Source: Bacteroidota bacterium
GTDB lineage: Bacteria > Bacteroidota > Bacteroidia > Chitinophagales > Saprospiraceae
Reading direction: 5' to 3'
Assembly: GCA_030147525.1 (NCBI GenBank)
Contig: JASBVF010000056.1
Coordinates: 124,001 to 188,000 of the forward strand
Length of the DNA: 64,000 bases
The notes below the pieces were generated by a model, which saw nothing but the letters and a program-made list of their open reading frames with translations, was not told the DNA's origin and searched no databases. Shown piece by piece: positions 3,557 through 42,196 of the stretch. A program made the position numbers and the translations under genes. Numbering within the stretch: position 1 is the stretch's first letter; the number at the start of each line of letters is the position of its first letter.

Positions 3557-4213
3557 ATGAAATATTGCTGCCTCCCCATCCTCCTGATCATTTTTATTTC
3601 ACAAGCTGCTTGCCAACAGCCCGCCCGACCTGACAAGCAAACCGCCAGCACTAACCAGGACCGCCCCGTCGGCGGCCCCTGCGAATGCTGCGATGCCTGG
3701 AAAGACGGCATGCCTGAAAAACTCTCCTGGCAAACCACCATCGCTCCACCCGGCGAACCCGGCGAACTGCTTGAAATCGAAGGCATTATTTTTAAAAAAG
3801 ACGGAAAGACACCAGCCGGAGACATTATATTATATGTGTACCACACCGACGCTAGGGGATTTTACTCGAACGGCCCGGACGTTTCCACCTGCGCCAAACG
3901 CCACGGCCACCTGCGTGGCTGGATGAAAACCGGCCCCGATGGCCGCTACCGCTTCAGCACCATTCGCCCGGCGTCTTACCCGAATACGACCATCGAACAG
4001 CACATTCATCCCATCATCAAAGAACCAAGACTGAAAGAGTACTGGATCGACGAATTCCTGTTCGACGACGATCCGAATTTGACTCAAAAAACAGGAAACA
4101 ATCAGCAGAAACGGGGCGGGTCCGGCATTTTGACTTTGGCAAAAAATAAGGAAGGCGTCTGGATGGGCAGGAGAGACATCGTGCTGGGTTTGAACGTGCC
4201 AGCGTATCCTTGA
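3557..4213 (+). CDS. Lipoprotein of the intradiol ring-cleavage dioxygenase family
   Basis: A 218-residue protein resembling the catalytic domain of protocatechuate 3,4-dioxygenase. Residues 1-19 form a lipoprotein signal peptide with the lipobox SQAAC (C19). The dioxygenase fold starts around residue 65. A candidate non-heme Fe(III) ligand set is Y103 (GFY) or a nearby Tyr, Y141 (ASYPN), H149 and H151 (EQHIH). The signature RHGHLRGW...TGPDGRYRF is clear. Exported, lipid-anchored intradiol dioxygenases are known in Bacteroidota but their substrates mostly are not; no aromatic degradation genes are nearby. An extra Cys cluster, CECC, lies at residues 42-45. The stop TGA lies at the edge of a word-palindrome element. 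Confidence 0.75.
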   Translation: MKYCCLPILLIIFISQAACQQPARPDKQTASTNQDRPVGGPCECCDAWKDGMPEKLSWQTTIAPPGEPGELLEIEGIIFKKDGKTPAGDIILYVYHTDARGFYSNGPDVSTCAKRHGHLRGWMKTGPDGRYRFSTIRPASYPNTTIEQHIHPIIKEPRLKEYWIDEFLFDDDPNLTQKTGNNQQKRGGSGILTLAKNKEGVWMGRRDIVLGLNVPAYP

Positions 4214-4291
4214 TTTAAGATTACATGATTTTTGATTTTTGATGAAGTCTGGCTCCCGATCAAAAATCAGCAATCATGTAATCTTAAATCT
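4212..4291. repeat. Intergenic word-palindrome A (between dioxygenase and pgi)
   Basis: The left arm at 4212-4243 and the right arm at 4258-4290 are imperfect inverted copies. The shared core is GATTTAAGATTACATGATT, followed by TGATTTTTGAT. Each arm is a string of degenerate short words (GATTT, GATTA, TGATT). The element fills the gap between two convergent genes and could act as a bidirectional transcript end. It lacks the GC-rich stem of a classical intrinsic terminator. Confidence 0.75.
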
Positions 4292-4298
4292 TAAATAA

Positions 4299-5603
4299 CT
4301 ACGGCTTTCCCAGCAACCGGAACATATTTTTCTTGTAAGCCTCTACCCCCGGTTGATCGAACGGATTGACGCCGAGCAGGTAGCCACTCACGGCACAGGC
4401 TTTTTCAAAAAAGTAAAACAGGTAGCCCAGGTGATAAGGCGTTGCTGCCGGGATGCTGATTTTCAGGTTCGGCACACCTCCGTCCACATGGGCTTCGATG
4501 GTGCCTTCGGCAGCTTTTTTGTTGACAAAGTCAAAAGTTTTGCCCGTCAGGTAGTTCAGGCCGTCGAGGTTGTCTTCGTCATTTTCCAGCACGACGCCGA
4601 CTTCAGGCGACTCAATTTCCAGCAGTGTTTCAAACAAATGCCGCCGCCCGTCCTGGATGTACTGTCCCAGCGAGTGAAGGTCAGTGGTGAAGTCAGCGCT
4701 GGCGGGGAAAATACCCTTGCCGTCCTTGCCTTCGCTCTCGCCGTAGAGTTGTTTCCACCACTCAGCGACGTAGTGCAGGCCGGGTTCGTAGTTGATCAGC
4801 ATTTCAATGGCCAATCCCTTGCGGTACAAGACGTTACGCAGGGCAGCATACTGGTAGCAGGCGTTTTGATCGAAAGGCATTTTAAAATCCTTCATCGCAT
4901 CGGCAGCGCCTTGCATCATTCCTTCAATGTCAATGCCTACGGCAGCAATCGGCAACAGCCCCACCGCCGTGAGCACAGAAAAACGGCCACCTACATCGTC
5001 GGGCACGACGAAAGTCTCGTAGCCTTCCTGCGTAGCCAGTGTTTTAAGTGCTCCTTTTGCCTTGTCGGTCGTGGCGTAAATGCGCTCCCGGGCGCCCTCC
5101 TTGCCATATTTTTCTTCCAGTTTTTTTCTGAAAACCCGGAATGCCAGCGCCGGCTCGGTGGTGGTTCCCGATTTTGAAATGACGTTGACGGAAAAATCCC
5201 GGTCGCCGATCACATCGAGCAAATCCCGGAGGTAGGTGCCGGAAATGTTCGTGCCGGCGAAGTATATCTCAGGCGTTTTCCGCTTCTTTTTTGGCAGTTT
5301 ATTATAAAAAGTGTGGCACAGCATTTCGATAGCTGCCTTGGCTCCGAGGTACGAGCCACCGATACCGATGACGACCAGCACTTCGGACTGTTTCTGGATT
5401 TTTTTCGCTGCTTTCTGAATGCGGCGAAACTCTTCCCGGTCGTACTTTCGGGGCAGATCGAGCCAGCCGAGGAATTCGTTGCCGGGACCTTTGCGGCTCT
5501 CGAGGAGTTTGGCAGCAGCCTCGGTGGGTGCAGCCATGATTTCAATTTCGTGAGGTTGCACGAAGCGTGCGGCGTTGGAGTGATCAAAAGTGAGTTTTTC
5601 CAT
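4299..5603 (-). CDS. pgi: Glucose-6-phosphate isomerase
   Basis: Interconverts glucose-6-phosphate and fructose-6-phosphate in the cytosol. At 434 residues it matches the short (about 450-residue) bacterial form rather than the 550-residue E. coli-type form. Signature blocks, in order: [17 protein letters not shown] (residues 78-94), [14 protein letters not shown] (phosphate-binding loop of the SIS fold), [14 protein letters not shown], and the catalytic region [13 protein letters not shown] with the [15 protein letters not shown] motif. The gene converges with the dioxygenase gene and is flanked on both sides by word-palindrome repeats, so it appears to be its own unit. Confidence 0.96.
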
Positions 5604-5606
5604 TTT

Positions 5607-5688
5607 TTGGTAAATTGGTGAACTGGTAGATTAGTGAATTGGGTTGGGCGTGCGGCCTGATTTACCAATTCACCAATTTACCAATCAC
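5607..5688. repeat. Intergenic word-palindrome B (between pgi and yraN)
   Basis: The left arm at 5607-5637 and the right arm at 5657-5688 pair as TTGGTAAATTGGTGAA-type words, with a few mismatches over about 28 bases. The inner spacer also has GGGTTGGGCG. It lies in the divergent gap, so it may overlap the pgi and yraN promoters. It has the same architecture as the other word palindromes but a different word (TTGGTAAA / TTGGTGAA). Confidence 0.75.
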
Positions 5689-5724
5689 TGATTTTTTAAC
5701 TTCGGCGCTAATTTCAAAAAAATC

Positions 5725-6096
5725 ATGGCAAAACATAACGAAACCGGAAAAAGGGGCGAAGAAATTGCCGAATCGTTGCTCCGGGAAAAAGGTTTCACCA
5801 TCCTCGAAACCAACTGGCGGCACAAACGCCTGGAGGTTGACCTGATCGCCAAAGATGGCAACGTGCTCGTTTTCGTGGAGGTAAAAACCCGCAGCTACGA
5901 CTACTTCGGTAAGCCGGAGGAGTTCGTGGATAAAAAAAAGGAGCGCCACCTCGCCCGGGCCGCTGCCGAGTACATGCGGCAGACGGGGCACGAGTGGGCG
6001 ATTCGTTTCGATGTGGTGTCGGTTTTATTAAAAAATGAAAATGCGTGGGAAGTAGAGCATATCCGGGATGCGTTTTTTCCGGGGATAGAAATTTGA
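5725..6096 (+). CDS. YraN family (UPF0102) endonuclease-like protein
   Basis: A 123-residue protein of the UPF0102/YraN family, which has a restriction-endonuclease-like fold related to archaeal Holliday junction resolvases. The conserved residues are visible: G8-x-x-GEE near the N-terminus, the E-x-D pair in LEVDLIAKDG, and the EVKTR motif (VFVEVKTRS), which together form a PD-(D/E)XK-like site. Length is typical. Its role in the cell is not established; a DNA-processing role is inferred from the fold. Confidence 0.9.
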   Translation: MAKHNETGKRGEEIAESLLREKGFTILETNWRHKRLEVDLIAKDGNVLVFVEVKTRSYDYFGKPEEFVDKKKERHLARAAAEYMRQTGHEWAIRFDVVSVLLKNENAWEVEHIRDAFFPGIEI

Positions 6097-6166
6097 ACTT
6101 TACCAAAGGAGTCAGGGTTTGAATTATGGTTAAATTTTCCGAATCTTGTAAACTAAAATTTCAGCG

Positions 6167-6403
6167 ATGACCTTAGAGCTAAACTATAAAAAAGACCAGC
6201 AAAATAAACTCCTGCAGCATATTCAATGGCTGCTCGAAATCGGCATGATCGATTCTTATGACCTGAAAACACGGGATGATTTCGAGGTTTCCGATGAGGA
6301 TTTCGAGGGGTTGCTCAAAGCCAGGGAAGATGTCAAAAATGGTAATTACTTAACAAACGAAGATATCAAAACCAAATTCTCCGAATGGCGAAAATCACGT
6401 TAA
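6167..6403 (+). CDS. Probable antitoxin of a RelE/ParE-type module
   Basis: A 78-residue, highly charged small protein with no recognised domain. Its C-terminus (DVKNGNYLTNEDIKTKFSEW) resembles the acidic/aromatic tail by which many small antitoxins wrap their toxin. It overlaps the next gene by 19 bases in a different frame, so the two are translationally coupled. The antitoxin role is inferred from gene order, size and the RelE/ParE-like partner. No DNA-binding domain (ribbon-helix-helix or HTH) is obvious. Confidence 0.65.
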   Translation: MTLELNYKKDQQNKLLQHIQWLLEIGMIDSYDLKTRDDFEVSDEDFEGLLKAREDVKNGNYLTNEDIKTKFSEWRKSR

Positions 6404-6708
6404 ATCTTCTTTGGTCGCCCAAGACTTTTTTTGACCTTAAAGCCATCCACGAGCGAATTTCCAACGACCTTTCCATCCAGCGAGCGGATAGCTATATCGA
6501 CGAATTAACTGAACGAATTGAAAGATTGAGAAGCTATCCTGCCTCTTATGCAATTTGCCGAAATGTAAAACTTAGAATAGCAGGTTTTCGCTGTATTTAC
6601 CACAAAAAACAATACATCGTTGTTTATGAAATTAACGGAAATGAAATCTTCATTCTCGGAATTATCAGTGCAAAATATAACCCGAAAGAATTAGAATCCA
6701 TCCTTTGA
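6385..6708 (+). CDS. RelE/ParE-family toxin
   Basis: A 107-residue protein with the RelE/ParE pattern: an N-terminal beta-strand (ITLNLLWSPKTFFDLKAIHE), two helices (ADSYIDELTERIERLRSYP), then the strand block CRNVKLRIAGFRCIYHKKQY and a closing IVVYEING...FILGIISAK. The R in KLRIAGFR and the Y in CIYHKKQY fall where catalytic or gyrase-binding residues are found in this superfamily. Sequence alone does not separate an mRNA endonuclease (RelE) from a gyrase poison (ParE). The gene overlaps the antitoxin gene and ends 3 bases before the AlkC-like gene. Confidence 0.75.
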   Translation: MAKITLNLLWSPKTFFDLKAIHERISNDLSIQRADSYIDELTERIERLRSYPASYAICRNVKLRIAGFRCIYHKKQYIVVYEINGNEIFILGIISAKYNPKELESIL

Positions 6709-6711
6709 TCC

Positions 6712-7830
6712 ATGCCCGAAAACTTCCAAATCCGAGACGTCTTCAACCCGCAGGTTGTCAGCCAACTCGCCGCTTCCCTGAATTCCGTCTGGCCTGCTTT
6801 CGACCCTGTTTCTTTTTGTGAAAACATCAACCCAAGGCTACCGCAACTTACCTTCTCCGAGCGCTCCCAACTCATCACCGATGTACTGGCGAAACACCTG
6901 CCGGATGACTTCCCCACCGCTGTTGATGTCTTGTTGAAGTCGCTTCCCGGCAAAATCGAGAAACAGGAAATCGAAGGCTACGACGGCTTCATGATCATGC
7001 CACTGAGCATCTACGTCAGTCAGCACGGGCTCGAACATTTTGAGCTGTCCATGCAGGCTTTGTATGAAATGACACAGCGCTTCACTGCCGAGTTTGCCAT
7101 CCGTTTTTTCATCGAAAAATACCCGGAACGCACGCTGGCCGTGCTGGCTGAATGGGCCACTGACCCGAATCCGCACGTGCGGCGCCTTGTTTCCGAAGGA
7201 ACCCGGCCATTGCTGCCGTGGGCCATGCGGTTGCAGCAGTTTGTAAAAAACCCCACACCGACTTTACGGCTTTTGGATTTATTGAAAAACGACCCGGAAT
7301 TGTTCGTTCGCCGCTCCGTCGCCAACCACCTGAACGACCACGCCAAGAACCATCCCGACCTCGTCGTCGAAACGCTAAACCGCTGGAAATCAGAACATCC
7401 CGTCGAAGAAACGGATTGGCTGGTGAAACACGCTACCCGCACTTTGGTAAAAAAAGGCCACCCCGGTGCACTCGAGCTCATCGGTTTTAAAAAAGGCGCC
7501 GACGTAAAAGTGGAAAACCTCACGGTCACTCCCGCCGTCAAAACGGGCGATTACCTCGAATTCAGCTTCGACCTCGTTTCAACCGGAAAAAAACCGCAAA
7601 AACTGGTGATTGACTATGTGATTTATTTCAAAAAAGCAGACGGCTCGCTCGCCCCGAAGGTTTTCAAAATGACCACCAAATCGCTGCCGCCCGGCGAGCG
7701 GATTTCTTTGCAAAAGCGGCATTCTTTCAGGAAAATTACGACCCGGGTTTATTATCCCGGTGAACATGAGATGGCCATTCAGATAAATGGAATAGAAAAT
7801 GGAAAGACCCATTTTAAACTGACAAGCTGA
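6712..7830 (+). CDS. AlkC-like DNA alkylation repair glycosylase with C-terminal Ig-like domain
   Basis: A 372-residue protein. Residues about 1-260 are alpha-helical HEAT-like repeats of the AlkC/AlkD superfamily, which excises alkylated purines without base flipping. Family-like blocks include FFIEKYPERTLAVLAEW, DPNPHVRRLVSEGTRPLLPW, and DPELFVRRSVANHLNDHAK. Residues about 265-372 are beta-rich (VENLTVTPAVKTGDYLEFSF) and match the extra Ig-like domain seen in AlkC but not AlkD. The ATG is 3 bases after the toxin stop, so it may be cotranscribed with the toxin-antitoxin pair. Its stop codon lies at the start of a one-armed word repeat. Confidence 0.8.
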   Translation: MPENFQIRDVFNPQVVSQLAASLNSVWPAFDPVSFCENINPRLPQLTFSERSQLITDVLAKHLPDDFPTAVDVLLKSLPGKIEKQEIEGYDGFMIMPLSIYVSQHGLEHFELSMQALYEMTQRFTAEFAIRFFIEKYPERTLAVLAEWATDPNPHVRRLVSEGTRPLLPWAMRLQQFVKNPTPTLRLLDLLKNDPELFVRRSVANHLNDHAKNHPDLVVETLNRWKSEHPVEETDWLVKHATRTLVKKGHPGALELIGFKKGADVKVENLTVTPAVKTGDYLEFSFDLVSTGKKPQKLVIDYVIYFKKADGSLAPKVFKMTTKSLPPGERISLQKRHSFRKITTRVYYPGEHEMAIQINGIENGKTHFKLTS

Positions 7831-7861
7831 TTCTCCCATTCTCCCATTCTCTCATTCTCTC
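7830..7861. repeat. One-armed word repeat between convergent genes
   Basis: The pattern is ATTCTCCC, ATTCTCCC, ATTCTCTC, ATTCTCTC in a row: an 8-9 base degenerate tandem word. It fills the 20-base gap between two convergent genes and also supplies the TGA stop codon of the NrfD-type gene on the minus strand. Unlike the seven other elements it has no inverted partner arm nearby, so it may be a half-element. Confidence 0.6.
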
Positions 7862-9066
7862 TTTCCAAACCTCACCCTCCCCAACTCAATCGGAATCGCC
7901 ACTTTCACCAACAAGGTAAAAATAAACGCACCCATCGCCCAGATGCCGATAGTCACCATGATTTCTACCAGCGAAGGCGTGTATTCCACGATATCGCCCC
8001 AAGAGCCGGGGATGAAACCGGGCACGATGAGGCCCATGCCTTTTTCAATCCAGATGGCCACGAAGAGTAGTCCACAGGCGAGTGCAAGCCAGCGAAACTG
8101 GTTGCGGAGCGTATGAAATGTGAGGATGCCCGTTGCAATGACGTTAAGTGAAATGGCACTCCAAATCCAGGGCACCAGCCCGGTTTTTCCATGCAAACCA
8201 AAAAAGAGATAGACGGCACTTTGGCTGTGGTGCGTCGGTGAGTAAAATTCTTTGAACAGCTCGGAAATGAGCATGATGAGGTTAATCTGTGCGGCAACCG
8301 TGGTCACCAACGCCAGTTTGCGCAGCGTCGTGTTCGGGATTTTGTAATCCGTGTACCGGCGGATGAAGGATAAAATGAGGATGATGAGCGCCGGTCCAGC
8401 CGAGAATGCCGACGCCAGAAAACGTGGCCCCAACAGCGACGAATTCCAAAACGGACGGGCTGGCAGACCGGCATACAAAAACGCCGTGACCATGTGGATG
8501 CCCACTGCCCAGAAAACGGAAATCAGCACGCCGGGCAGGTAAACATTTTTGTTCGGTTCCTTGCCCTGATAGTGGTGAAATAATATGTACAGCGGGATGG
8601 TGATGTTGATGAAAAGGTAGCCGTTCAGCACGATGACGTCCCAGGCGAGCATGGAGTTCGGCCAGTTAAAATAGCCCAGTTTGGGAATCAGGTGCCACGC
8701 CCTTGCCGGGCCGCCCAAATCCACCGTCACGAAGGCCAGGCACATGATGAGCGCCGCCACTGCCAGCCCTTCCCCAATCAGCACCGCCTGTTTCAGGTTG
8801 ATGTCCTTCAACACGTAAGTGGGCAGTACGAGCATGACCGCCGCCGCCGCCACCCCCACCAGGAAGGTGAAATTCGAGATGTAAAGCCCCCAACTCACCT
8901 TGTCGCTCATGCCGGTAACGACCAGCCCGTCCCGCAGTTGGATGTAGTAGGCAAAAGTGCCCAGCAGCATCAGCACCGTCAGCGTGGCCATCCACACGTG
9001 GTAGGTGAAATTGCCTTTGGTGGCAGATTGAAAACCGTCTTTTATGAATTGAACAAAAACTTGCAT
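7852..9066 (-). CDS. NrfD/PsrC-type quinol-oxidising membrane subunit of the nap operon
   Basis: A 404-residue integral membrane protein with about ten hydrophobic helices, in the NrfD/PsrC/DsrP family. These proteins exchange electrons and protons between the menaquinone pool and a periplasmic Fe-S partner. Visible blocks include FTYHVWMATLTVLMLLG (helix 1), WGLYISNFTFLVGVAAA, DLGGPARAWHLIPKLG, and FNWPNSMLAWDVIVLNGY, all typical of the family. It carries no heme motifs. It is the last gene of the operon after a four-cluster ferredoxin, so it most likely replaces NapC as quinol dehydrogenase for nitrate reduction. The stop TGA lies inside a degenerate word repeat. Confidence 0.85.
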   Translation of the reverse strand: MQVFVQFIKDGFQSATKGNFTYHVWMATLTVLMLLGTFAYYIQLRDGLVVTGMSDKVSWGLYISNFTFLVGVAAAAVMLVLPTYVLKDINLKQAVLIGEGLAVAALIMCLAFVTVDLGGPARAWHLIPKLGYFNWPNSMLAWDVIVLNGYLFINITIPLYILFHHYQGKEPNKNVYLPGVLISVFWAVGIHMVTAFLYAGLPARPFWNSSLLGPRFLASAFSAGPALIILILSFIRRYTDYKIPNTTLRKLALVTTVAAQINLIMLISELFKEFYSPTHHSQSAVYLFFGLHGKTGLVPWIWSAISLNVIATGILTFHTLRNQFRWLALACGLLFVAIWIEKGMGLIVPGFIPGSWGDIVEYTPSLVEIMVTIGIWAMGAFIFTLLVKVAIPIELGRVRFGKRE

Positions 9067-9076
9067 GTGGTTGTGA

Positions 9077-9155
9077 TTAGCTGTTGGCCTTTGGCTGTTG
9101 GCTTTGCAAAATGGCTCGTCAAAGCCAAGCGCTAAAAGCCAACCGCCAAAAGCCG
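9077..9155. repeat. Word-palindrome C (between Fe-S and nrfD-type genes)
   Basis: The left arm at 9077-9107 and the right arm at 9119-9155 pair through repeated words of the type TTGGCTGTTGGCTTT / AAAGCCAACCGCCAAAAGCC. The core word is closely related to elements D and F. It sits between two cotranscribed genes, so it would form a hairpin in the mRNA rather than a transcript end. Confidence 0.75.
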
Positions 9156-9160
9156 GAAAA

Positions 9161-10225
9161 TCAGTCCATGTAATACCAAAACTTCGGCTCCGTGCCCAAG
9201 TCCTCTTTCAGCCGGAAGACCTTTTTATTTTCCAAAACCCAACGGATTTCGCTGTTCGGGTCGAGGATATTGCCGAAGATGCGGGCGCCCGTCGGGCAAG
9301 CCTCCACACAGGCGGGGTTCTTCCCGTTGCGGCTGCGTTGGATGCAGAAGGTGCATTTTTCCATCACCCCTTTGCTCCGCAAACGATTGCCGAGGTAGTG
9401 CTGTGTGTGGTTCACCTCTTCTTCCGGCACTTCCGGGGTTTGCCAGTTGAAACGGCGGCCATCGTAAGGGCAGGCTGCCATGCAATACCGGCAGCCAATG
9501 CACCAGTCGTAGTCAATCACCACGATGCCATCGTCCTCCTTCCACGTCGCCCCGACCGGACAGACCTTCACGCAGGGTGGATTTTCACAATGGTAGCATT
9601 GGGTTCCGAGGTAAAAATGCCCCTCGGCAGGTACTTCGTGGAAGTAGTTGTCGTCGGCATCATCGAAATTGAGCTGCCCATTTTCCATCTCATGGATGCG
9701 GATGTACTGCATCTGCGAACTTCGGTCCTGGTTGTTTTCCTTCACGCAGGCGTTCACACAATCCATGTAGCCCTGGCATTTTGAAATATTGAAAGCGTAG
9801 CCGTACAGCACATTCTCAACCGCCCCGTTGGTGGAGACGTTGATGGTCTTGCCGGTGTTAATTTCATACAGCCGCTCGAGGCGTTCCACCGTTTTAGACT
9901 TCTCTTCATCGGTCATCAGGCGGTAGTTCTTTTTGAAATATTCCTCCCATTTCAACTGCCCCTCCTCCCGTTTATCACCAGTGGAAGTGGCGCTGCACGA
10001 TGCCTGCACCATGCCTGCACCAGCCAGCAGCCCCGCCGTCATCTGGCGAAAAGCTGCCCGGCGGTTCATGGTTTTGCCCAGTTTCATGTCATAACCATCC
10101 GGTTCGGCGGTTGTAGGTTCCGGCGTTTTTTTACAGCCACAATTTCCAGAACCGCAGCCGTCGCTGGCCTGAGGTAAATCCTCTTCCACCGGTTTTCTTG
10201 TTTTAAAAAATAAGTCGAAAAGCAT
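9161..10225 (-). CDS. Four-cluster periplasmic ferredoxin-like Fe-S subunit (NrfC/DsrO type)
   Basis: A 354-residue electron-transfer protein that likely takes electrons from the NrfD-type subunit. Cys groups for four [4Fe-4S] clusters are visible: C150/C156/C160, C210/C213/C218/C222, C242/C245/C248/C252 and C291/C294/C306/C310. A twin-Arg motif (NRRAAFRQM) at residues 54-62, followed by a hydrophobic stretch and C77, indicates Tat export, possibly as a lipoprotein. The Tat signal is preceded by a 52-residue in-frame extension with the odd Cys cluster CGSGNCGC (residues 24-31). Either translation starts at the ATG at 10069, or this is a long N-terminal extension as seen in some related Fe-S subunits. 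Confidence 0.87.
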   Translation of the reverse strand: MLFDLFFKTRKPVEEDLPQASDGCGSGNCGCKKTPEPTTAEPDGYDMKLGKTMNRRAAFRQMTAGLLAGAGMVQASCSATSTGDKREEGQLKWEEYFKKNYRLMTDEEKSKTVERLERLYEINTGKTINVSTNGAVENVLYGYAFNISKCQGYMDCVNACVKENNQDRSSQMQYIRIHEMENGQLNFDDADDNYFHEVPAEGHFYLGTQCYHCENPPCVKVCPVGATWKEDDGIVVIDYDWCIGCRYCMAACPYDGRRFNWQTPEVPEEEVNHTQHYLGNRLRSKGVMEKCTFCIQRSRNGKNPACVEACPTGARIFGNILDPNSEIRWVLENKKVFRLKEDLGTEPKFWYYMD

Positions 10226-10239
10226 GTGAAGGTGTTGAT

Positions 10240-10306
10240 TTAGCTATTGGCTATTGGCTTTTAGCTATTGGCCAGCCAACAGCCAACAGCTAAAAGCCAA
10301 TAGCCC
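10240..10306. repeat. Word-palindrome D (between cytochrome and Fe-S genes)
   Basis: The left arm at 10240-10272 and the right arm at 10273-10305 pair almost end to end, sharing GGCTATTGGCTTTTAGCT, with TTGGC words repeated inside each arm. It fills the space between the tetraheme cytochrome stop and the Fe-S gene start. It is nearly the same sequence as element F in the napB-napA gap. Confidence 0.8.
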
Positions 10307-10950
10307 TATTTCAGCCATTCCGTATTCAAACGGGCAGGCAAACGTTTTTCAAAAGCAGGTTTGTGGGGGTTGTGACAGCCGGTGCAGGTCTGCGAAACAC
10401 GAGGCGGCGCCCAGCCTCCGACCTGCTTGCCATGCGCACCGCCCAGCCAGTCTTTTTGCTGAGTGGAATGGCATTGACCGCAGAGTTCGTAGCTGTGGTT
10501 AAATTCAATCGGCGCACCCGTCAGGCTGTGCAGTAGGTTGAAATTTTTGGGGTCGTGGCAGGTCGTACATTGCATGGTGACAGTCTTGGCATGAACGATT
10601 TCGATGTCCCAGTGCGACTTCTTCTCGCCGGGCGCCTTGCCTGCCTGCAATGCTTCGAGCGATTTGCTGTGGCAATTGGAGCAGGGATAGGATTTCATCT
10701 CCGCCATCCTGTCGGGAATCAAAAACTGCTCTGCTCCCTCCACCAGTTGGTGGATTTGCACCAGTTTCTCCTTATCCACCTGGTCGAAGCGGCTGAATTC
10801 ATAGTTCAGGCTGTCCACACTGATGTATTTTAGCTGTTCCAAAAGATGGTGGCTGCCATTATGCCCGCCCTCGTCATGTTGCCCGGGGGCGCATTTCACC
10901 CCCAAAACAATCAGCACAGCGAGTATTCCCAGCACGGCAAGTTGTTTCAT
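10306..10950 (-). CDS. Periplasmic tetraheme cytochrome c of the nap operon
   Basis: The frame is open to 11028, but the region above 10950 encodes only a translated palindrome repeat, so I start at the ATG at 10950 (MKQLAVLGILAVLIV signal/anchor, 214 residues). Four heme c motifs CxxCH are seen: C90-H94 (CSNCH), C128-H132 (CTTCH), C157-H161 (CGQCH) and C189-H193 (CTGCH). Extra His residues suit bis-His ligation, as in small c3/c7-like cytochromes. Lying between the Fe-S gene and napB, it is the likely electron bridge from the Fe-S subunit to NapB. It is not a NapC/NirT homologue by appearance. Confidence 0.85.
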   Translation of the reverse strand: MKQLAVLGILAVLIVLGVKCAPGQHDEGGHNGSHHLLEQLKYISVDSLNYEFSRFDQVDKEKLVQIHQLVEGAEQFLIPDRMAEMKSYPCSNCHSKSLEALQAGKAPGEKKSHWDIEIVHAKTVTMQCTTCHDPKNFNLLHSLTGAPIEFNHSYELCGQCHSTQQKDWLGGAHGKQVGGWAPPRVSQTCTGCHNPHKPAFEKRLPARLNTEWLK

Positions 10951-10983
10951 GTTATTGAACAATTTGGAATTGGTAGAACACAT

Positions 10984-11071
10984 TTTTTGAAACACATAGG
11001 CACATAGACCACATAGATTTTTAGCCAATGGGCTATGTGAACTATGTGTCTATGTGTTTCAAAAAAAATCT
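10984..11071. repeat. Word-palindrome E (between napB and cytochrome genes)
   Basis: The arms at 10984-11018 and 11033-11071 pair as TTTTTTGAAACACATAG followed by CACATAG words. Within each arm the word CACATAG(A/G) is repeated three times. It occupies the gap between napB and the cytochrome gene and is the reason the cytochrome frame appears to extend upstream. Confidence 0.8.
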
Positions 11072-11086
11072 TGTGTTCACAAAAAT

Positions 11087-11866
11087 TTATTGGTTGTTTT
11101 CCCTCACCCACTCCCCAATCGCACTAACTTCCTTTTCATCCAATTGCGTCCCATTCCGCTGCGAAGGCGAAACAGGACGTGTCCACGTCGAGGCATCCTC
11201 CATCAAAGGTTTTTCAAATAAATCATCCAGCCGGGCGGGCACGTGGCATTGTCGGCAATTCACCCGCTCCGGGTGGCTCACCTTGATAGCCTTAGGCGCA
11301 GCCGGCCCCGCATGGCAAGCCAGACAGTTTTCCCGCAACTGCAAAGTGTGCGGTATCACCGGCGGACTGCCCGGCATGGCGCTTTGCCCCAGCACCGGCG
11401 GGTCCGGTTTGGTGAAATTTGAATTGGCAAACAAGCCCTCCGTCGTCTTCGGCACGTGGCATTGGCGGCAATTCAGCAACTCCGGATGCGGCGTCACCGG
11501 GGCGAAAGCCTTGAACTGCTCGGTATAGCCGCCGTTCTCGTGGCATTGAAGGCAAGTCTTTCCGCCAATTCCTTTTTCAGAAACCAATGGGTGAGGGATG
11601 AGCGGCGGCGCTCCGGGATACGCCCGGTTTTCGTAGTACGTGCGCAAGTCCCTGCCGCCTTCGGGCATTTTCTGGTATTGCAGCGCCATTGCCAATCGCC
11701 GGAAAACGCCAGCCTCGGCAGGGATGGAGGGCGTATCGCCGGTCTGCATGTAATCCGTGTCGGCAGGGCGTTTGCTTTCCCGCAACGCTGCCAGAAAGAT
11801 GAACACCGCCGACGCCAGCAACGCCACGCAAAGTCCGATGATGAAATAGCTTGATTTTCTTTTCAT
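11087..11866 (-). CDS. napB: NapB-like cytochrome with two fused NapB units (tetraheme)
   Basis: A 259-residue periplasmic electron-transfer subunit of nitrate reductase. After an N-terminal membrane anchor (residues 6-27) come two copies of the NapB core. Copy 1 has YPGAPPLIPH, CLQCH, TPHPELLNCRQCHVP. Copy 2 has MPGSPPVIPH, CLACH, SHPERVNCRQCHVP. Standard NapB has one such unit with two hemes; this protein has four CxxCH motifs and about twice the core length. It also keeps its anchor instead of a clearly cleaved signal peptide. It is 69 bases downstream of napA in the transcript, with palindrome F between. Confidence 0.85.
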   Translation of the reverse strand: MKRKSSYFIIGLCVALLASAVFIFLAALRESKRPADTDYMQTGDTPSIPAEAGVFRRLAMALQYQKMPEGGRDLRTYYENRAYPGAPPLIPHPLVSEKGIGGKTCLQCHENGGYTEQFKAFAPVTPHPELLNCRQCHVPKTTEGLFANSNFTKPDPPVLGQSAMPGSPPVIPHTLQLRENCLACHAGPAAPKAIKVSHPERVNCRQCHVPARLDDLFEKPLMEDASTWTRPVSPSQRNGTQLDEKEVSAIGEWVRENNQ

Positions 11867-11870
11867 TTTT

Positions 11871-11934
11871 TGCTGTTAGCTTTTAGCTATTCGCTATTGG
11901 CTGTGCATGGCTAAAAGCCAACAGCCAATAGCCA
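11871..11934. repeat. Word-palindrome F (between napA and napB)
   Basis: The left arm from 11871 and the right arm at 11909-11934 pair over GCTGTTAGCTTTTAGC / GGCTAAAAGCCAACAGCC with one mismatch. The extra words TATTCGCTATTGGCT sit in the loop side. It belongs to the same word family as elements C and D. It fills essentially the whole napA-napB gap. Confidence 0.8.
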
Positions 11935-11935
11935 T

Positions 11936-14263
11936 TTACGCTTTCTCCACCTTCACCGCACATTTTTTATAATCAGGTTCCCGTGAAATGGGGCAAAAGC
12001 TGTCCAGCGTCAGTTCGTTGATGAGCAGCGACTCGTCGAAGAACGGCACAAACACCTGCCCCTCGGTCGGCAAACCCCGCTCGTTGACGGAGGCAGGCAG
12101 CACCAGCGAACCCCGGCGACTGGTCAGTTTCACCTTGTCGCCCGTTTTCACACCCAACCTCGAAGCATCGTTCGGATGCAACTCGGCGTAGGAGTGCGGC
12201 ATGGCCTGATGCAGCACCGCCACCCGGCGGGTCATCGAGCCGGTGTGCCAGTGTTCGAGCACCCGGCCGGTGTTCAGCCAGAATGGATAATCATTGTCCG
12301 GCGACTCTGCGGGTGGTTCGTAGGGGCGAACCCAAATCCAGGCTTTGCCGTCGGGTTTTCCATAAAAATCGAAACTGTCGCCCTTGGCTGCCGGGTCGTA
12401 TTTGGCATGGTAGCGCCACTTGGTGCTCTTGCCATTCACGTAGGGCCAGACCACACCCGATTCTTTTTTCAGCACCTCGTAAGGTGCGATGCCGTGTTTG
12501 TCGCCCTCATGAAACTTGTAGTATTCTTCCCAAATCTTCTCAACATGGTTCTCTTTTGTCCAGGGGAAATATTTTTCATAACCCATCCTGCGGGCCACTT
12601 CAATCATTTGCCATGCATCGCTAAATGCCTCGCCCTGTGGTTCCAGCATTTTTTCGAAATGTTGGGTGCGGCGCTCGGAGTTCCCAAACATCCCTTCCCG
12701 CTCAATCCACATGGCGGCGGGCAGCACCACATCCGCCACGTCGGTCGTCGGTGTGGGGTACACATCGGAGACAACGACGAAGCGGTCATCTTTTTTGGCG
12801 CCCTCCCGGTAGCGCTTTAGCTTGGGCATACTGACAAACGGATTGGTCGTTTGAATCCAGATGAATTTGATATCGCCCCGGTCGAGGGCACGGAACATTT
12901 CCACCGTGTGGTAGGTGGGTTTTGGTGAAATATTGGTGACGGGCACACCCCAGATTTTGGCGGCTTTCTCCCGGGCTTTTTCGTTGTCAACGGTGCCGTA
13001 GGGCAATGCGTGGGTCAGCGTTCCGACCTCCCTAACCGTACCACAGGCGCTGGGCTGGCCGGTGAGTGAAAATGGACTGTTGCCCGGTGTGGAAATTTTG
13101 CCCGTCAGCAGGTGGATGTTGTAAATGAGGTTATTCATCCAGGTGCCACGGGTGTGCTGGTTGGGGCCCATGCACCAGAGCGACATGACTTTTTTGTTCG
13201 GGTCGCCGTAGAGTGAGGCCATGTATTTGATGTCTTTTGCTGAAACACCGGAGAGCTTTTCGACCTTTTCCGGGCGGTAGTCTTCCAGGAAAGCTTTGAA
13301 CTGCTCCAGCGTCATGTCCTTCGGCTCGTCTTTGAACTGAAATTTATCTTCCAATCCGTAGCCGATGTTCGTTTTACCAGATTTGAAAACACAATGCTTC
13401 TGGAGAAAGCCACGGTTGTGCCAGTTGTTTTTCAAAATTTCATAGCAAATGGCATTCGCCACTGCAAGGTCGGTCTGAGGTTTGAACAAAATCGAACGGT
13501 CGCTGGCCATGCTCGTGCGGGTGGTCCGAGTGGCGAAGTCGATGATTTTCACCCCATTTCGCCGCAGGCGCTGGTCGAGCATCCGGGAGAAAAGCACGGG
13601 GTGCATCTCGGCCATGTTGTTGCCCCACATCACGAAAACGTCGGCGTGGTCGATGTCCTCGTAGCAGCCCATCGGCTCGTCCATGCCGAAGCTGGTCATG
13701 AAACCGGTCACGGCGCTTGCCATGCAAAGGCGGGCGTTTGCTTCGAGGTTGTTCGTGCCGATGACACCCTTCATGAATTTGGACGCCACGTATCCATCGG
13801 GAATCGTCCACTGCCCTGAGCCATAAATGGCAACCGAGTCCTTGCCGTGTTTGGCGATATTTTCCTTCATCTTGCTGGCGACGAGGTCGAGGGCCTCCTT
13901 CATGGTGGCCGGTTCCAGCTTGCCGTTGCGGCGGATGAGGGGCTTGGTCAGGCGGTCTTTTCCGTAAATGGCGAGTACCGAGTGGTAGCCTTTCACGCAA
14001 CAAAGCCCTTTGTTCACTTCGCTGGCCGGGTCGCCTTTCACGGCAACGGCCTTGCCTTTTTGCACGCCGATGAGCAACCCGCAGCCGACGCCGCAGAAGC
14101 GGCAGGGCGACTTTTTCCACTTGATATCATCGCCGTCCGGCAGCCCCTTCAACTGTTCGTTGGGGAAAATAATGCCGGGAAACAGGGTGGCCGCTGCCAT
14201 TGCCGCCGAGGCGATGGCCATCTTTTTGATGAAATTTCGTCTGTTGATTTGAGTCGAAGACAT
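11936..14263 (-). CDS. napA: Periplasmic nitrate reductase catalytic subunit NapA
   Basis: Reduces nitrate to nitrite in the periplasm with a bis-MGD molybdenum cofactor and one [4Fe-4S] cluster. The 775-residue protein starts with a Tat signal (INRRNFIKKM, residues 6-15, then an Ala-rich stretch). Cluster ligands are C54, C57, C61 and C89. The Mo ligand is C180 in NARLCMASAV, the sequence typical of NapA rather than of membrane Nar (Asp) or formate dehydrogenase (Sec/Cys in other context). The C-terminal cofactor block has GRVLEHWHTGSMTRR and ELHPNDASRLGV. It lies between napD and napB in one transcript direction. Confidence 0.96.
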   Translation of the reverse strand: MSSTQINRRNFIKKMAIASAAMAAATLFPGIIFPNEQLKGLPDGDDIKWKKSPCRFCGVGCGLLIGVQKGKAVAVKGDPASEVNKGLCCVKGYHSVLAIYGKDRLTKPLIRRNGKLEPATMKEALDLVASKMKENIAKHGKDSVAIYGSGQWTIPDGYVASKFMKGVIGTNNLEANARLCMASAVTGFMTSFGMDEPMGCYEDIDHADVFVMWGNNMAEMHPVLFSRMLDQRLRRNGVKIIDFATRTTRTSMASDRSILFKPQTDLAVANAICYEILKNNWHNRGFLQKHCVFKSGKTNIGYGLEDKFQFKDEPKDMTLEQFKAFLEDYRPEKVEKLSGVSAKDIKYMASLYGDPNKKVMSLWCMGPNQHTRGTWMNNLIYNIHLLTGKISTPGNSPFSLTGQPSACGTVREVGTLTHALPYGTVDNEKAREKAAKIWGVPVTNISPKPTYHTVEMFRALDRGDIKFIWIQTTNPFVSMPKLKRYREGAKKDDRFVVVSDVYPTPTTDVADVVLPAAMWIEREGMFGNSERRTQHFEKMLEPQGEAFSDAWQMIEVARRMGYEKYFPWTKENHVEKIWEEYYKFHEGDKHGIAPYEVLKKESGVVWPYVNGKSTKWRYHAKYDPAAKGDSFDFYGKPDGKAWIWVRPYEPPAESPDNDYPFWLNTGRVLEHWHTGSMTRRVAVLHQAMPHSYAELHPNDASRLGVKTGDKVKLTSRRGSLVLPASVNERGLPTEGQVFVPFFDESLLINELTLDSFCPISREPDYKKCAVKVEKA

Positions 14264-14342
14264 ATTTTTCTTGATTTGGCAGCATCGCCTTTGAACGGTG
14301 CTGTAAAATATCCTTTAGGTTTTTCGCCGCCTGAAGGCGACG

Positions 14343-14567
14343 TTACTCTGCAAATGCCGACACCAGCGTCAGGTGCCGCAGGTTTTTCATACTGTTCAGT
14401 TTTTCCAGCAAGGCTTTGTCCTCTTCTTCATTTTTTGTTTCTGAAATGACGATGAGCACGTCCTTGTTTTCAGCAGGAATGACCTCGCAGCCGAGTGCCA
14501 ATACTTCGGTGCGGAGGGCTTCCAGTTGATTTTCACACGCCAGGGCGAGATAGCTTTTGATGGGCAT
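14343..14567 (-). CDS. napD: NapD-type Tat proofreading chaperone
   Basis: A 74-residue protein starting at ATG 14567 (MPIKSYLALAC). The open frame extends to 14723 only through a palindrome repeat and the end of the porin gene, so the longer start is rejected. The ferredoxin-like pattern expected of NapD is visible: strand, helix (NQLEALRTEVLALG), CEVIPAENKDVLIVIS strands, a second helix (EEDKALLEKLNSMKN) and a last strand (LRHLTLVSAFAE). NapD binds the NapA Tat signal and holds back export until the cofactor is inserted. The call rests on size, fold pattern and position 79 bases before napA. Confidence 0.8.
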   Translation of the reverse strand: MPIKSYLALACENQLEALRTEVLALGCEVIPAENKDVLIVISETKNEEEDKALLEKLNSMKNLRHLTLVSAFAE

Positions 14568-14676
14568 TTGATGTTGTTTGATGGGTTTGAGGAGTTTGAT
14601 GGGTTTGAAGGGTTTGCGGATTCGCAGCAAAAAACTCAAACCATAAAAACCCATCAAACTCCTCAAACAACTCAAT
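14568..14676. repeat. Word-palindrome G (between porin and napD genes)
   Basis: The left arm at 14568-14618 and the right arm at 14633-14676 share a perfect inverted core, TTTGAGGAGTTTGATGGGTT, with TTTGA(T/G)G words repeated throughout. The TGA stop codon of the porin gene falls inside the right arm. It is the longest element in the set. Confidence 0.8.
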
Positions 14677-15949
14677 CTTTCTTGGTTGAAAACAGCACCG
14701 GCTTCACCGTTACCATGGTCCAAATCCAGGTGTTGAAGGAGTTGCGGTCGCCGCCTTTCACCTGCTGCAAAGTTTCCGTGCCGAACATTTGGGAATAGCC
14801 AAGATTCAGGCTCGCCATTCCATCAAAAAAATTATAGGTGTAAACCGCATCGAACTCTGTCCCGAGGTAGGAATTCATCTCTTTTCCAGATTCATCCATC
14901 ACAGTGGCCGGCGAACTAAATCCGTGTACGTGCAGGTCGAGTTTGCCGGACTTCCCGGCAGGGATGGCGGTTTTTACAAAAAAGTCAATCAGGCCGAGGG
15001 TTCTGCCAGCCTGCCTGTGAGGACTACCCACGTAGAAATAGTCCATGAAGCCGTAGAACTTGTGGTTGGTGCCGTAGAGCGGGTCAAAGGCGGTGTTTTT
15101 GGTTTCGCCTGCATCAGTGCCGGAGAGGTAATCCGTTCCGATGGTCAGGGTGGTCTTGCCGATTTTGGTGCTGAGATTGAGAGCAGCGAGGTAAGCGCTG
15201 ATGTCGGTTTGGGAAATGTCTTCGCCGGTCTGGTAGTACAGCTCGGCGTCGAGTTTGATTTTGCCAAAGGTCTGCATCCAGCGGGTGCCGAGGGTCTGGC
15301 GGTAAGATACTGTTGTGTCGGCGGACTGCTGCCCGTCGTTGTGCAGGAGGAAGGAGATATTTCCCTGCTCGTATTTTTTATTCAACCAGCCATACTGCAT
15401 GGTTTTGTAGTTGTTCACGCCGGTGTAGAAATTGCCGGTGAGCTTGCCCGGTTCGAAAGGCACATTCTGGTTGTAAGCCCCGCCGAAGTGGACTTTCCAG
15501 CCTTTTTCTGCATTTTCATATTTCACCAAAAGCGCATCATGCGTGCGGCTCTGCTGCGCCCAACTCAGGTCACCGAGGAAGCGGGCGCCGTCGTAGTCCA
15601 ACTCCTGCCGCCCGAATTTTGCCGACCAGTTATCAGTGATGGAAAGTTCTGCCCAAGCTTCATGCACATTGGTGAGCGCCGGGTCGGTTTTGTAAATCTG
15701 GCTGGCATTCCCCCAGATGCGCACGTCCTGCAGGTTGAGTTGAAATTTGACTTTGGGCGCCTGGTAGTTCATGTACAGGCGGGAGCGCTGCTCGATGAAA
15801 AACGCCGCATCGGCATCTTCGGGCAAGAGGCTTTTGAAACCCTGACGGTATTCCGCACGGGGGCGGACTTCGCCGGTGAGGGTGAATTGTGCGGTGGAAG
15901 ATTGAATGTAAAATACAGTCAAGAGAAAGAAAACCAGGTTTGACCTCAT
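14672..15949 (-). CDS. Outer-membrane porin of the alginate-export family
   Basis: A 425-residue predicted beta-barrel with a signal peptide (residues 1-20, cleavage near STAQ). The body follows the alginate_exp family: GEVRPRAEYRQGF, FFIEQRSRLYMNYQ, LQDVRIWGN, and AWAELSITDNWSAKFGRQEL with the LDYDGARFLGDLSW block. It ends in alternating-residue strands. It is the first gene of the nap operon, so it probably serves as an outer-membrane channel for anions such as nitrate or nitrite; alginate export itself is unlikely because no alginate genes are near. Its stop is supplied by palindrome G. Confidence 0.8.
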   Translation of the reverse strand: MRSNLVFFLLTVFYIQSSTAQFTLTGEVRPRAEYRQGFKSLLPEDADAAFFIEQRSRLYMNYQAPKVKFQLNLQDVRIWGNASQIYKTDPALTNVHEAWAELSITDNWSAKFGRQELDYDGARFLGDLSWAQQSRTHDALLVKYENAEKGWKVHFGGAYNQNVPFEPGKLTGNFYTGVNNYKTMQYGWLNKKYEQGNISFLLHNDGQQSADTTVSYRQTLGTRWMQTFGKIKLDAELYYQTGEDISQTDISAYLAALNLSTKIGKTTLTIGTDYLSGTDAGETKNTAFDPLYGTNHKFYGFMDYFYVGSPHRQAGRTLGLIDFFVKTAIPAGKSGKLDLHVHGFSSPATVMDESGKEMNSYLGTEFDAVYTYNFFDGMASLNLGYSQMFGTETLQQVKGGDRNSFNTWIWTMVTVKPVLFSTKKD

Positions 15950-42150: not shown

Positions 42151-42196
42151 GAAGGATGAACCATGAGCTGCACTTTTCAGTCATGGTTCATCCTTC
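42151..42196 (+). terminator. Intrinsic terminator after the surA-type gene
   Basis: A perfect 16-base inverted repeat, GAAGGATGAACCATGA (42151-42166) with TCATGGTTCATCCTTC (42181-42196), followed by ATTATTTTTATT. It starts 10 bases past the stop codon. Confidence 0.85.

Follow-up and report, generated by a model that had tools for sequence, protein, structure and literature searches.

Why should seven intergenic gaps in the first 15 kb of one stretch of bacterial DNA each hold a long imperfect palindrome whose arms repeat a short degenerate word? These palindromes, sites A to G, lie in a 64,000-nucleotide (nt) stretch of a Bacteroidota genome (GCA_030147525.1, contig JASBVF010000056.1; G000:C54:124001-188000), which is the window of this analysis; the source genome, G000, comprises 7.08 Mb. 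A sequence-only reading had drawn attention to them, and all seven were present where it had placed them: the arms were located at every site, and each site out-folded all 200 of its own dinucleotide shuffles, with z from -5.3 to -9.6. Most likely the seven sites are part of a population of gene-end hairpin repeats that is dispersed over the whole genome; we call these repeats word palindromes.

The genome was sampled in 61 stretches (1,225,247 bases, window included) with a simple hairpin scan at a score of at least 16, and one second-order Markov surrogate per stretch served as the control. The scan returned 132 hairpins compared to none in the surrogates, and inverted repeats with internal words were found throughout the sample. 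Chance inverted repeats were rejected because the surrogates held none and the window sites folded better than all of their shuffles, which also removed the concern that such elements might be common in shuffled sequence. A score of at least 18 was reached by 98 of the 132 hairpins, and 48 of those 98 carried a strong tandem word. Word elements numbered 62 by tandem score, or 66 if three further words were admitted by name; the larger set contains five of the seven window sites plus a hairpin at 42151, and C and F score too low to enter it. The tandem words recurred at lags of 8, 7, 9, 10 and 13 in 36, 15, 8, 2 and 1 of the 62 elements, respectively. The median arm was 30 nt long (more than 60 nt for both arms) with a G+C content of 38%, and an arm of this length holds about two to six degenerate copies of a 7-10 nt word, with a variable loop between the arms.

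Loose clustering chained 36 of the 66 elements together, with words grading into each other, and strict picking gave 26 representative words, several of them borderline, or roughly two dozen word types in the genome. The claim that the words differ from site to site stood insofar as the elements are not copies of one repeat, but the words of the individual sites are not independent, as many belong to families dispersed over the genome. These families are partly common to a related species (G006) and to other genomes of the genus. The elements do not form a single mobile family that duplicates its target: 5-mers resembling target-site duplications were seen at 2 of the 66 elements compared to a control mean of 2.7. 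Some loop 6-mers recurred among elements; a shared loop motif was considered, and no common core was established. Hairpin families without words are also present in G000, one of them constant and resembling repetitive extragenic palindromes (REPs). A wordless family of about 100 nt (TTGTCATTGYCG...GACAATGACAA and variants) was seen at L044:9566, L044:11844, L051:12811 and L039:4228.

Our own hairpin scan of the window (match +1, mismatch -2, threshold 14) recovered six of the seven palindromes, and the site at 11871 scored below the threshold. Between 15 and 64 kb, where the sequence-only reading had reported none, there was indeed no clear word palindrome, only eight shorter hairpins (arms of 15-20 nt; 42151 borderline), but the genome elsewhere is full of them. 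A restriction of word palindromes to 4-15 kb was therefore rejected, and the apparent restriction is local.

The word palindromes sit at gene ends. Gap and stop-codon counts used our own hexamer-based gene calls. By these calls one of the 66 word elements was intragenic and another could not be assigned to a gap between genes; the remainder occupied 39 co-directional, 20 convergent and 5 divergent gaps, and all gaps of at least 80 nt numbered 374, 55 and 121 in the same order. Among 79 stop codons facing an element, 62 lay within 25 nt of it and 23 overlapped the palindrome, in agreement with the earlier observation that the palindromes often supply or abut stop codons. Inverted repeats downstream of stop codons are common across bacteria, and the accessible text of PMC13155455 describes an enrichment of perfect ones 50-80 nt after the stop, which its authors attribute to termination.

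A palindrome built from the word CACAGAG was found in G000 at L095:4396, with a variant at L038:592. A strict pattern for this palindrome matched 97 stretches of GTDB species genomes, and several genomes hold many copies. The hosts among the 80 titles listed of the 97 are Proteobacteria, Bacteroidetes, Gemmatimonadetes, Planctomycetes, Acidobacteria, Chloroflexi, Abditibacterium (Abditibacteriota) and Desulfuromonadales (Thermodesulfobacteriota), which amounts to at least eight phyla. Many of the records are metagenome bins, and the isolates include Azospirillum, Roseateles, Magnetospirillum and Bacteroides; since isolates are among the carriers, contamination is not the whole explanation. Spread by phages or plasmids was considered and rejected: the pattern had no match in viral contigs, and one 76-base query had none in a plasmid collection, where a low-complexity filter could hide matches.

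Loci L186-L266 were read (82 matches), arm statistics were taken from the 81 elements with 40 nt on both sides, and position was assessed on all 97 loci (98 matches). The arms were conserved between copies. The flanks were not common to the copies in Gemmatimonadetes, Azospirillum and Abditibacterium; in Prevotella RGIG4603 the copies had a longer stretch of flank in common, and in Roseateles two copies had some of it. The loops varied, yet were similar within Prevotella and within Abditibacterium. The median distance to a stop codon was 23 nt, with 56 of 87 between -30 and 60, and the elements occupied 26 convergent, 35 co-directional and 10 divergent gaps compared to 102, 260 and 85 overall. 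Sixteen of the 98 matches fell inside long open reading frames (ORFs), although the ORF caller was crude and is not reliable where genomes are rich in G+C. Further word palindromes were present at these loci, for example CCAAGACA and CGCAAAGA. In Prevotella RGIG4603 (L187, L189, L195, L224, L230, L234, L241 and L266) the CACAGAG palindrome was embedded, as the core, in a dispersed repeat of greater length, the ends of which are possibly TAAGTAT/ATACTTA.

Within one word family, it was mostly the loop and the flanks that distinguished the copies. Sequence variation was often mirrored between the two arms of an element. In the 81 CACAGAG elements, the variable arm position 7 agreed in both arms without exception (44 G/G, 37 A/A) and position 13 agreed in 76. 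Further out, positions 6-8 are left free by the search pattern, and they were mirrored at frequencies of 0.95, 0.91 and 0.63 compared to 0.53, 0.60 and 0.28 expected. For 114 arms in G000 that have relatives, the best match was the arm's own partner in 83 cases and tied with it in 6, and in 77 alignable pairs of copies 102 of 231 differences were mirrored on both arms. Elements less than 5 kb apart shared a word family in 8 of 33 pairs, when 1.5 were expected and none of 5000 permutations reached the observed value.

The arms in G000 were also asymmetric in composition. On either strand, the first arm to be met was rich in G and poor in C, with more G than C in 58 of the 62 elements and less in 2; the corresponding counts were 22 and 2 among the 26 representatives, and 28 and 19 among 54 wordless hairpins. 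Base totals over the inward arms gave G:C as 1148:207. Because a palindrome is identical on both strands, this asymmetry must have a directional source, such as transcription, translation or the direction of the polymerase. Read inward, an arm held 3.27 stop codons on average compared to 0.83 when read the other way, and stops in all three frames occurred in 52 of 124 arms read inward and in 3 of 124 read the other way. There were more stops inward in 21 of the 26 representative words and the opposite in 1. The CACAGAG core has equal shares of G and C, and purines make up 14 of its 18 bases.

The same gaps were compared in G006, which belongs to the same genus and has a NapA that is 91% identical and nap-region DNA that is about 78% identical. 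The comparable gaps were six in the window (B-G) and L050:2730; A, a half site at 7830 and three of the four L050 sites were not comparable. Sites proved to be present or absent at the same gap between the related species: G006 had no palindrome in five of the six window gaps (B, D, E, F and G), and its C gap contained a related but degenerate sequence, recognised by eye and below the scan threshold. In the L050:2730 gap, the palindrome of G006 was built from another word and had a stem that is perfect over 17 bp; G006 also carried the same word families as G000 at other places. A TTGGCT palindrome was found in 4 of 14 genomes of the genus, G000 included, at one or two places each. With strict exact patterns, the site B family gave 23 matches in G000 (overlapping matches counted) and none in 197 other genomes of the phylum, and the site E pattern was likewise absent from these 197 genomes.

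A closer comparison came from Azospirillum, where A. canadense and A. rugosum align over whole loci (93% and 91%) and A. isscasi and a record titled Roseomonas genomospecies 6 are more distant. At L190:2092 (CCAAGACA) and L237:6331 (CACAGAG), the element was present in A. canadense and A. rugosum, and the other two genomes had short gaps without it; gap lengths were 110 and 117 nt with the element and 2 and 29-56 nt without. The L190:2092-2175 word palindrome had more than 20 similar places in A. canadense. At L190:3044, all four genomes had a palindrome, but A. canadense had extra 8-nt words in one arm compared to A. rugosum, and in the two more distant genomes both arms were made of another word (CACGAAGA or CACAAAGA). 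This gap shows the traces that slippage and concerted word replacement would leave.

We are inclined to explain the word palindromes as dispersed gene-end hairpin repeats in which the words are lengthened by slippage, the arms are matched by arm-to-arm copying, and copying into other gaps happens occasionally. Polymerase slippage on the tandem words would add or remove words, and template switching across the hairpin would copy one arm from the other, so that a changed word reaches both arms and the loop is left to drift. The hairpin or a single arm might occasionally be copied into another gap, perhaps often nearby, by a putative route. An element would be kept where it is least harmful, downstream of genes, and there the arms in G000 would offer stops in several frames. 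The predicted stem in the transcript is long and stable, and plausible roles for it are to cap and protect the 3′ ends of mRNA, to keep cistrons apart, and to slow ribosomes or otherwise act on translation close to the stop codon. The accessible parts of PMC8604942 and PMC8794818 describe that template switching homogenises the arms of inverted repeats and inverts their spacers, and that it can both create and repair stems.

Several observations weigh against this account. The arm of another element was a better match than the arm's own partner for 25 of the 114 arms, 129 of the 231 copy differences were unmirrored, and the hairpin score picks matching arms, which inflates arm agreement in G000. 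The outer CACAGAG positions are free of that selection, but many of the 81 members are related copies, and six of the eight same-family near pairs came from one cluster of four elements. Selection for pairing could yield mirrored changes without template switching, and an enzyme for the copying step would have to be assumed. Wordless hairpins had a similar gap bias (35 co-directional, 17 convergent and 3 divergent), which makes the placement a property of gene-end hairpins generally and not special to word palindromes. Fifteen 20-kb stretches of other relatives contained, by eye, 2 word palindromes at a score of at least 19 compared to 50 in the G000 sample, and the density thus differs strongly between species. 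Stop codons in the G000 arms were only slightly above the expectation from composition, CACAGAG arms were nearly without them, and 21 other word hairpins near the CACAGAG loci in other phyla had no skew (G>C in 8, G<C in 10). Selection for stop codons in all frames was rejected as the cause on these grounds, with the C-poor inward arm explaining most of the effect; stop-codon content is a possible filter in this genome only.

Within the window, a TIGR04183 sorting domain of the type IX secretion system (T9SS) was found on one protein; T9SS sorting domains are typical of Bacteroidota. Palindrome A (4212..4290), made of TTTTTGAT words, has arms at 4212-4243 and 4259-4290 that are 94% complementary, and it sits between the stop codons of two convergent genes, with the ORFs 3557-4213 (+) and 4299-5603 (-) ending at its edges. 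Palindrome B (5607..5684; word GGTRAATT; arms 5607-5634 and 5657-5684, 89% complementary) lies in a divergent gap directly upstream of the start codon of a PGI-like gene. At 7830..7866, reading of the sequence bore out the description of a half element with its word run (ATTCTCYC) in one arm only. It begins within the stop codon of a DNA_alkylation gene and is possibly a decayed or incipient word palindrome.

Sites C-F lie in a nap-like gene run (7852..14263, minus strand) that by Pfam matches encodes an NrfD-like protein, a 4Fe-4S protein, a multihaem cytochrome, a NapB-like protein and a NapA-like molybdopterin oxidoreductase. Palindrome C (9077..9154) is built of TTGGCT, with arms at 9077-9106 and 9120-9149 (80% complementary). 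D (10243..10305; word TTGGCTATTGGCT) has arms at 10249-10272 and 10282-10305 (96%), and E (10983..11066; CACATAG) has arms at 10983-11016 and 11033-11066 (91%). F (11869..11932; TTGGCT and TTAGCT) consists of two arm pairs, 11869-11890 with 11907-11928 (86%) and 11893-11904 with 11921-11932 (100%), and separates the NapB-like and NapA-like genes. Reading confirmed that the sites at 9077 (C), 10240 (D) and 11871 (F) have the TTGGCT word in common. Palindrome G (14573..14675; word GTTTGATGG; arms 14578-14616 and 14637-14675, 85% complementary) overlaps the stop codon of an alginate-export-like gene. The Rfam 15 families had no match at gathering score across the whole window. Among 39 other genomes searched, the NapA-like protein (window 11936-14263) had a close relative (91%) only in G006, and the next best was 32% identical; the nap-like cluster may have been acquired.

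The word palindromes could instead be REP-like elements, or resemble miniature inverted-repeat transposable elements (MITEs), that are moved as single-stranded hairpins by Y1/HUH transposases of the REP-associated tyrosine transposase (RAYT) or IS200/IS605 type, which we consider unlikely. G000 has four Y1_Tnp matches, and a match was found in 33 of the 40 genomes searched (G000 included) and in 12 of 14 CACAGAG-bearing genomes, but the other two, the completeness of which was not stated, had none. Y1/HUH-type transposases are not known to leave a target duplication, and none was seen. The longer conserved dispersed repeat around the Prevotella RGIG4603 palindrome and the flank shared in part by the two Roseateles copies also speak for such movement. 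One of three RAYT-like genes examined had a word palindrome a few hundred nt away, and another had none close. In contrast, the RAYT-like Y1 transposase gene at G000:C48:85851 (L167 = G000:C48:80001-92000, 5500-6428) is flanked by constant REP-like hairpins, CCGGGTTAT...ACCCGGCG, and not by words, and these are a separate family. Furthermore, about two dozen word types in one genome are ill-suited to a single recognition sequence.

Selection on an RNA or DNA function (stabilisation of mRNA 3′ ends, separation of cistrons, control of translation near the stop codon or protein binding) might also keep the arms matched, in which case the mirroring would be ordinary compensatory mutation. The location at gene ends in G000 and in other phyla, the stable folds, and arms that are more conserved than the loops all agree with this, as does the report that REPs in Escherichia coli at most 15 nt from a stop codon stall ribosomes or lower translation (PMC12306157, accessible part). 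However, entire tandem words are altered jointly in the two arms, related species have gained and lost sites, and word identity varies widely within one genome, and we regard selection alone as improbable. Transcription terminators are a very improbable explanation, and intrinsic termination found no support. In favour of terminators, convergent gaps are enriched, divergent gaps are depleted and perfect inverted repeats are enriched 50-80 nt past stops across bacteria (PMC13155455, accessible part). However, T-rich tails (at least 5 T in 8) followed only 9 of 132 arm exits, near the random rate of 5.4%, and arms with 38% G+C do not make the G+C-rich stem of an intrinsic terminator. A terminator scan of 3800-15200 gave 19 sites compared to 16.5 in shuffles; none of them spans a whole palindrome, and the only one within a palindrome is a 5-bp stem in C (9085-9097). 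In addition, sites C-F separate same-strand genes that resemble one operon.

A bolder version of the account by slippage and arm-to-arm copying, offered tentatively and with some doubt, is that word palindromes are a bacteria-wide class of minimal selfish replicators that have neither genes nor a transposase of their own, and for which the hairpin arms would serve as template. Slippage would write the words, foldback template switching would stamp them on both arms, and ectopic copying would spread the arms to other gene ends and, through horizontal transfer, to other phyla, leaving each genome with its own evolving vocabulary.

Among known elements, repeats of the REP and MITE type come closest, and what is new is the tandem words in the arms. 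As in REPs and bacterial interspersed mosaic elements (BIMEs) with their RAYTs, the word palindromes are dispersed intergenic hairpins, mostly downstream of genes and in many copies. REPs are 20-40 bp repeats, most of which are tagged GTAG or CGTC (PMC3733652, accessible part), and are constant within a family. In contrast, word palindromes exceed 60 nt, have variable tandem degenerate words and occur as many word types per genome, and inspection of the seven window sites found no GTAG or CGTC tag at their ends. In G000 the two kinds coexist, with the constant REP-like hairpin beside the RAYT-like gene. MITEs are short, non-coding, dispersed and capable of forming hairpins, and the word palindromes share all of these features. 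The differences from MITEs are the lack of target duplications in the counts given above, the lack of a constant element length, and flanks that, in three of five aligned genomes, differed from copy to copy, the exceptions being Prevotella and, in part, Roseateles. Possible short terminal repeats were seen by inspection in the Prevotella version only.

Tandem words in gaps are known from the TAACTGA heptamer repeats of Beggiatoaceae, Cyanobacteria and Bacteroidetes, for which the accessible part of PMC4679880 describes a word that recurs in distant phyla, gains and losses that are specific to strains, and 7-nt indels. Those repeats are direct (169 direct sets and one indirect) and, in the main genome studied there, mostly upstream of start codons. 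The word palindromes similarly place a short word in direct tandem between genes, but invert the word array into long hairpins at gene 3′ ends; the half site at 7830 is the only one in which the direct run stands by itself. Hairpins maintained by template switching (quasipalindrome correction) share with them the homogenised arms and free spacers but are described, in the accessible parts of PMC8794818 and PMC8604942, as a mutation process at inverted repeats and not as a dispersed repeat population. Among the papers listed by searches of the open-access literature, none described palindromes of inverted tandem words at gene ends, and neither did the accessible text of PMC4666352 or PMC2267715.

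The finding raises the question of the route by which hairpins that share one 18-nt arm core come to lie at gene ends across eight phyla or more, when so far no transposase has been linked to them. If the account of slippage and arm-to-arm copying is true, many unexplained short gaps in bacterial genomes would be filled by a mobile class of hairpins that the definitions of REPs and MITEs miss, and the word palindromes would provide a natural system for watching slippage and template switching shape sequence.

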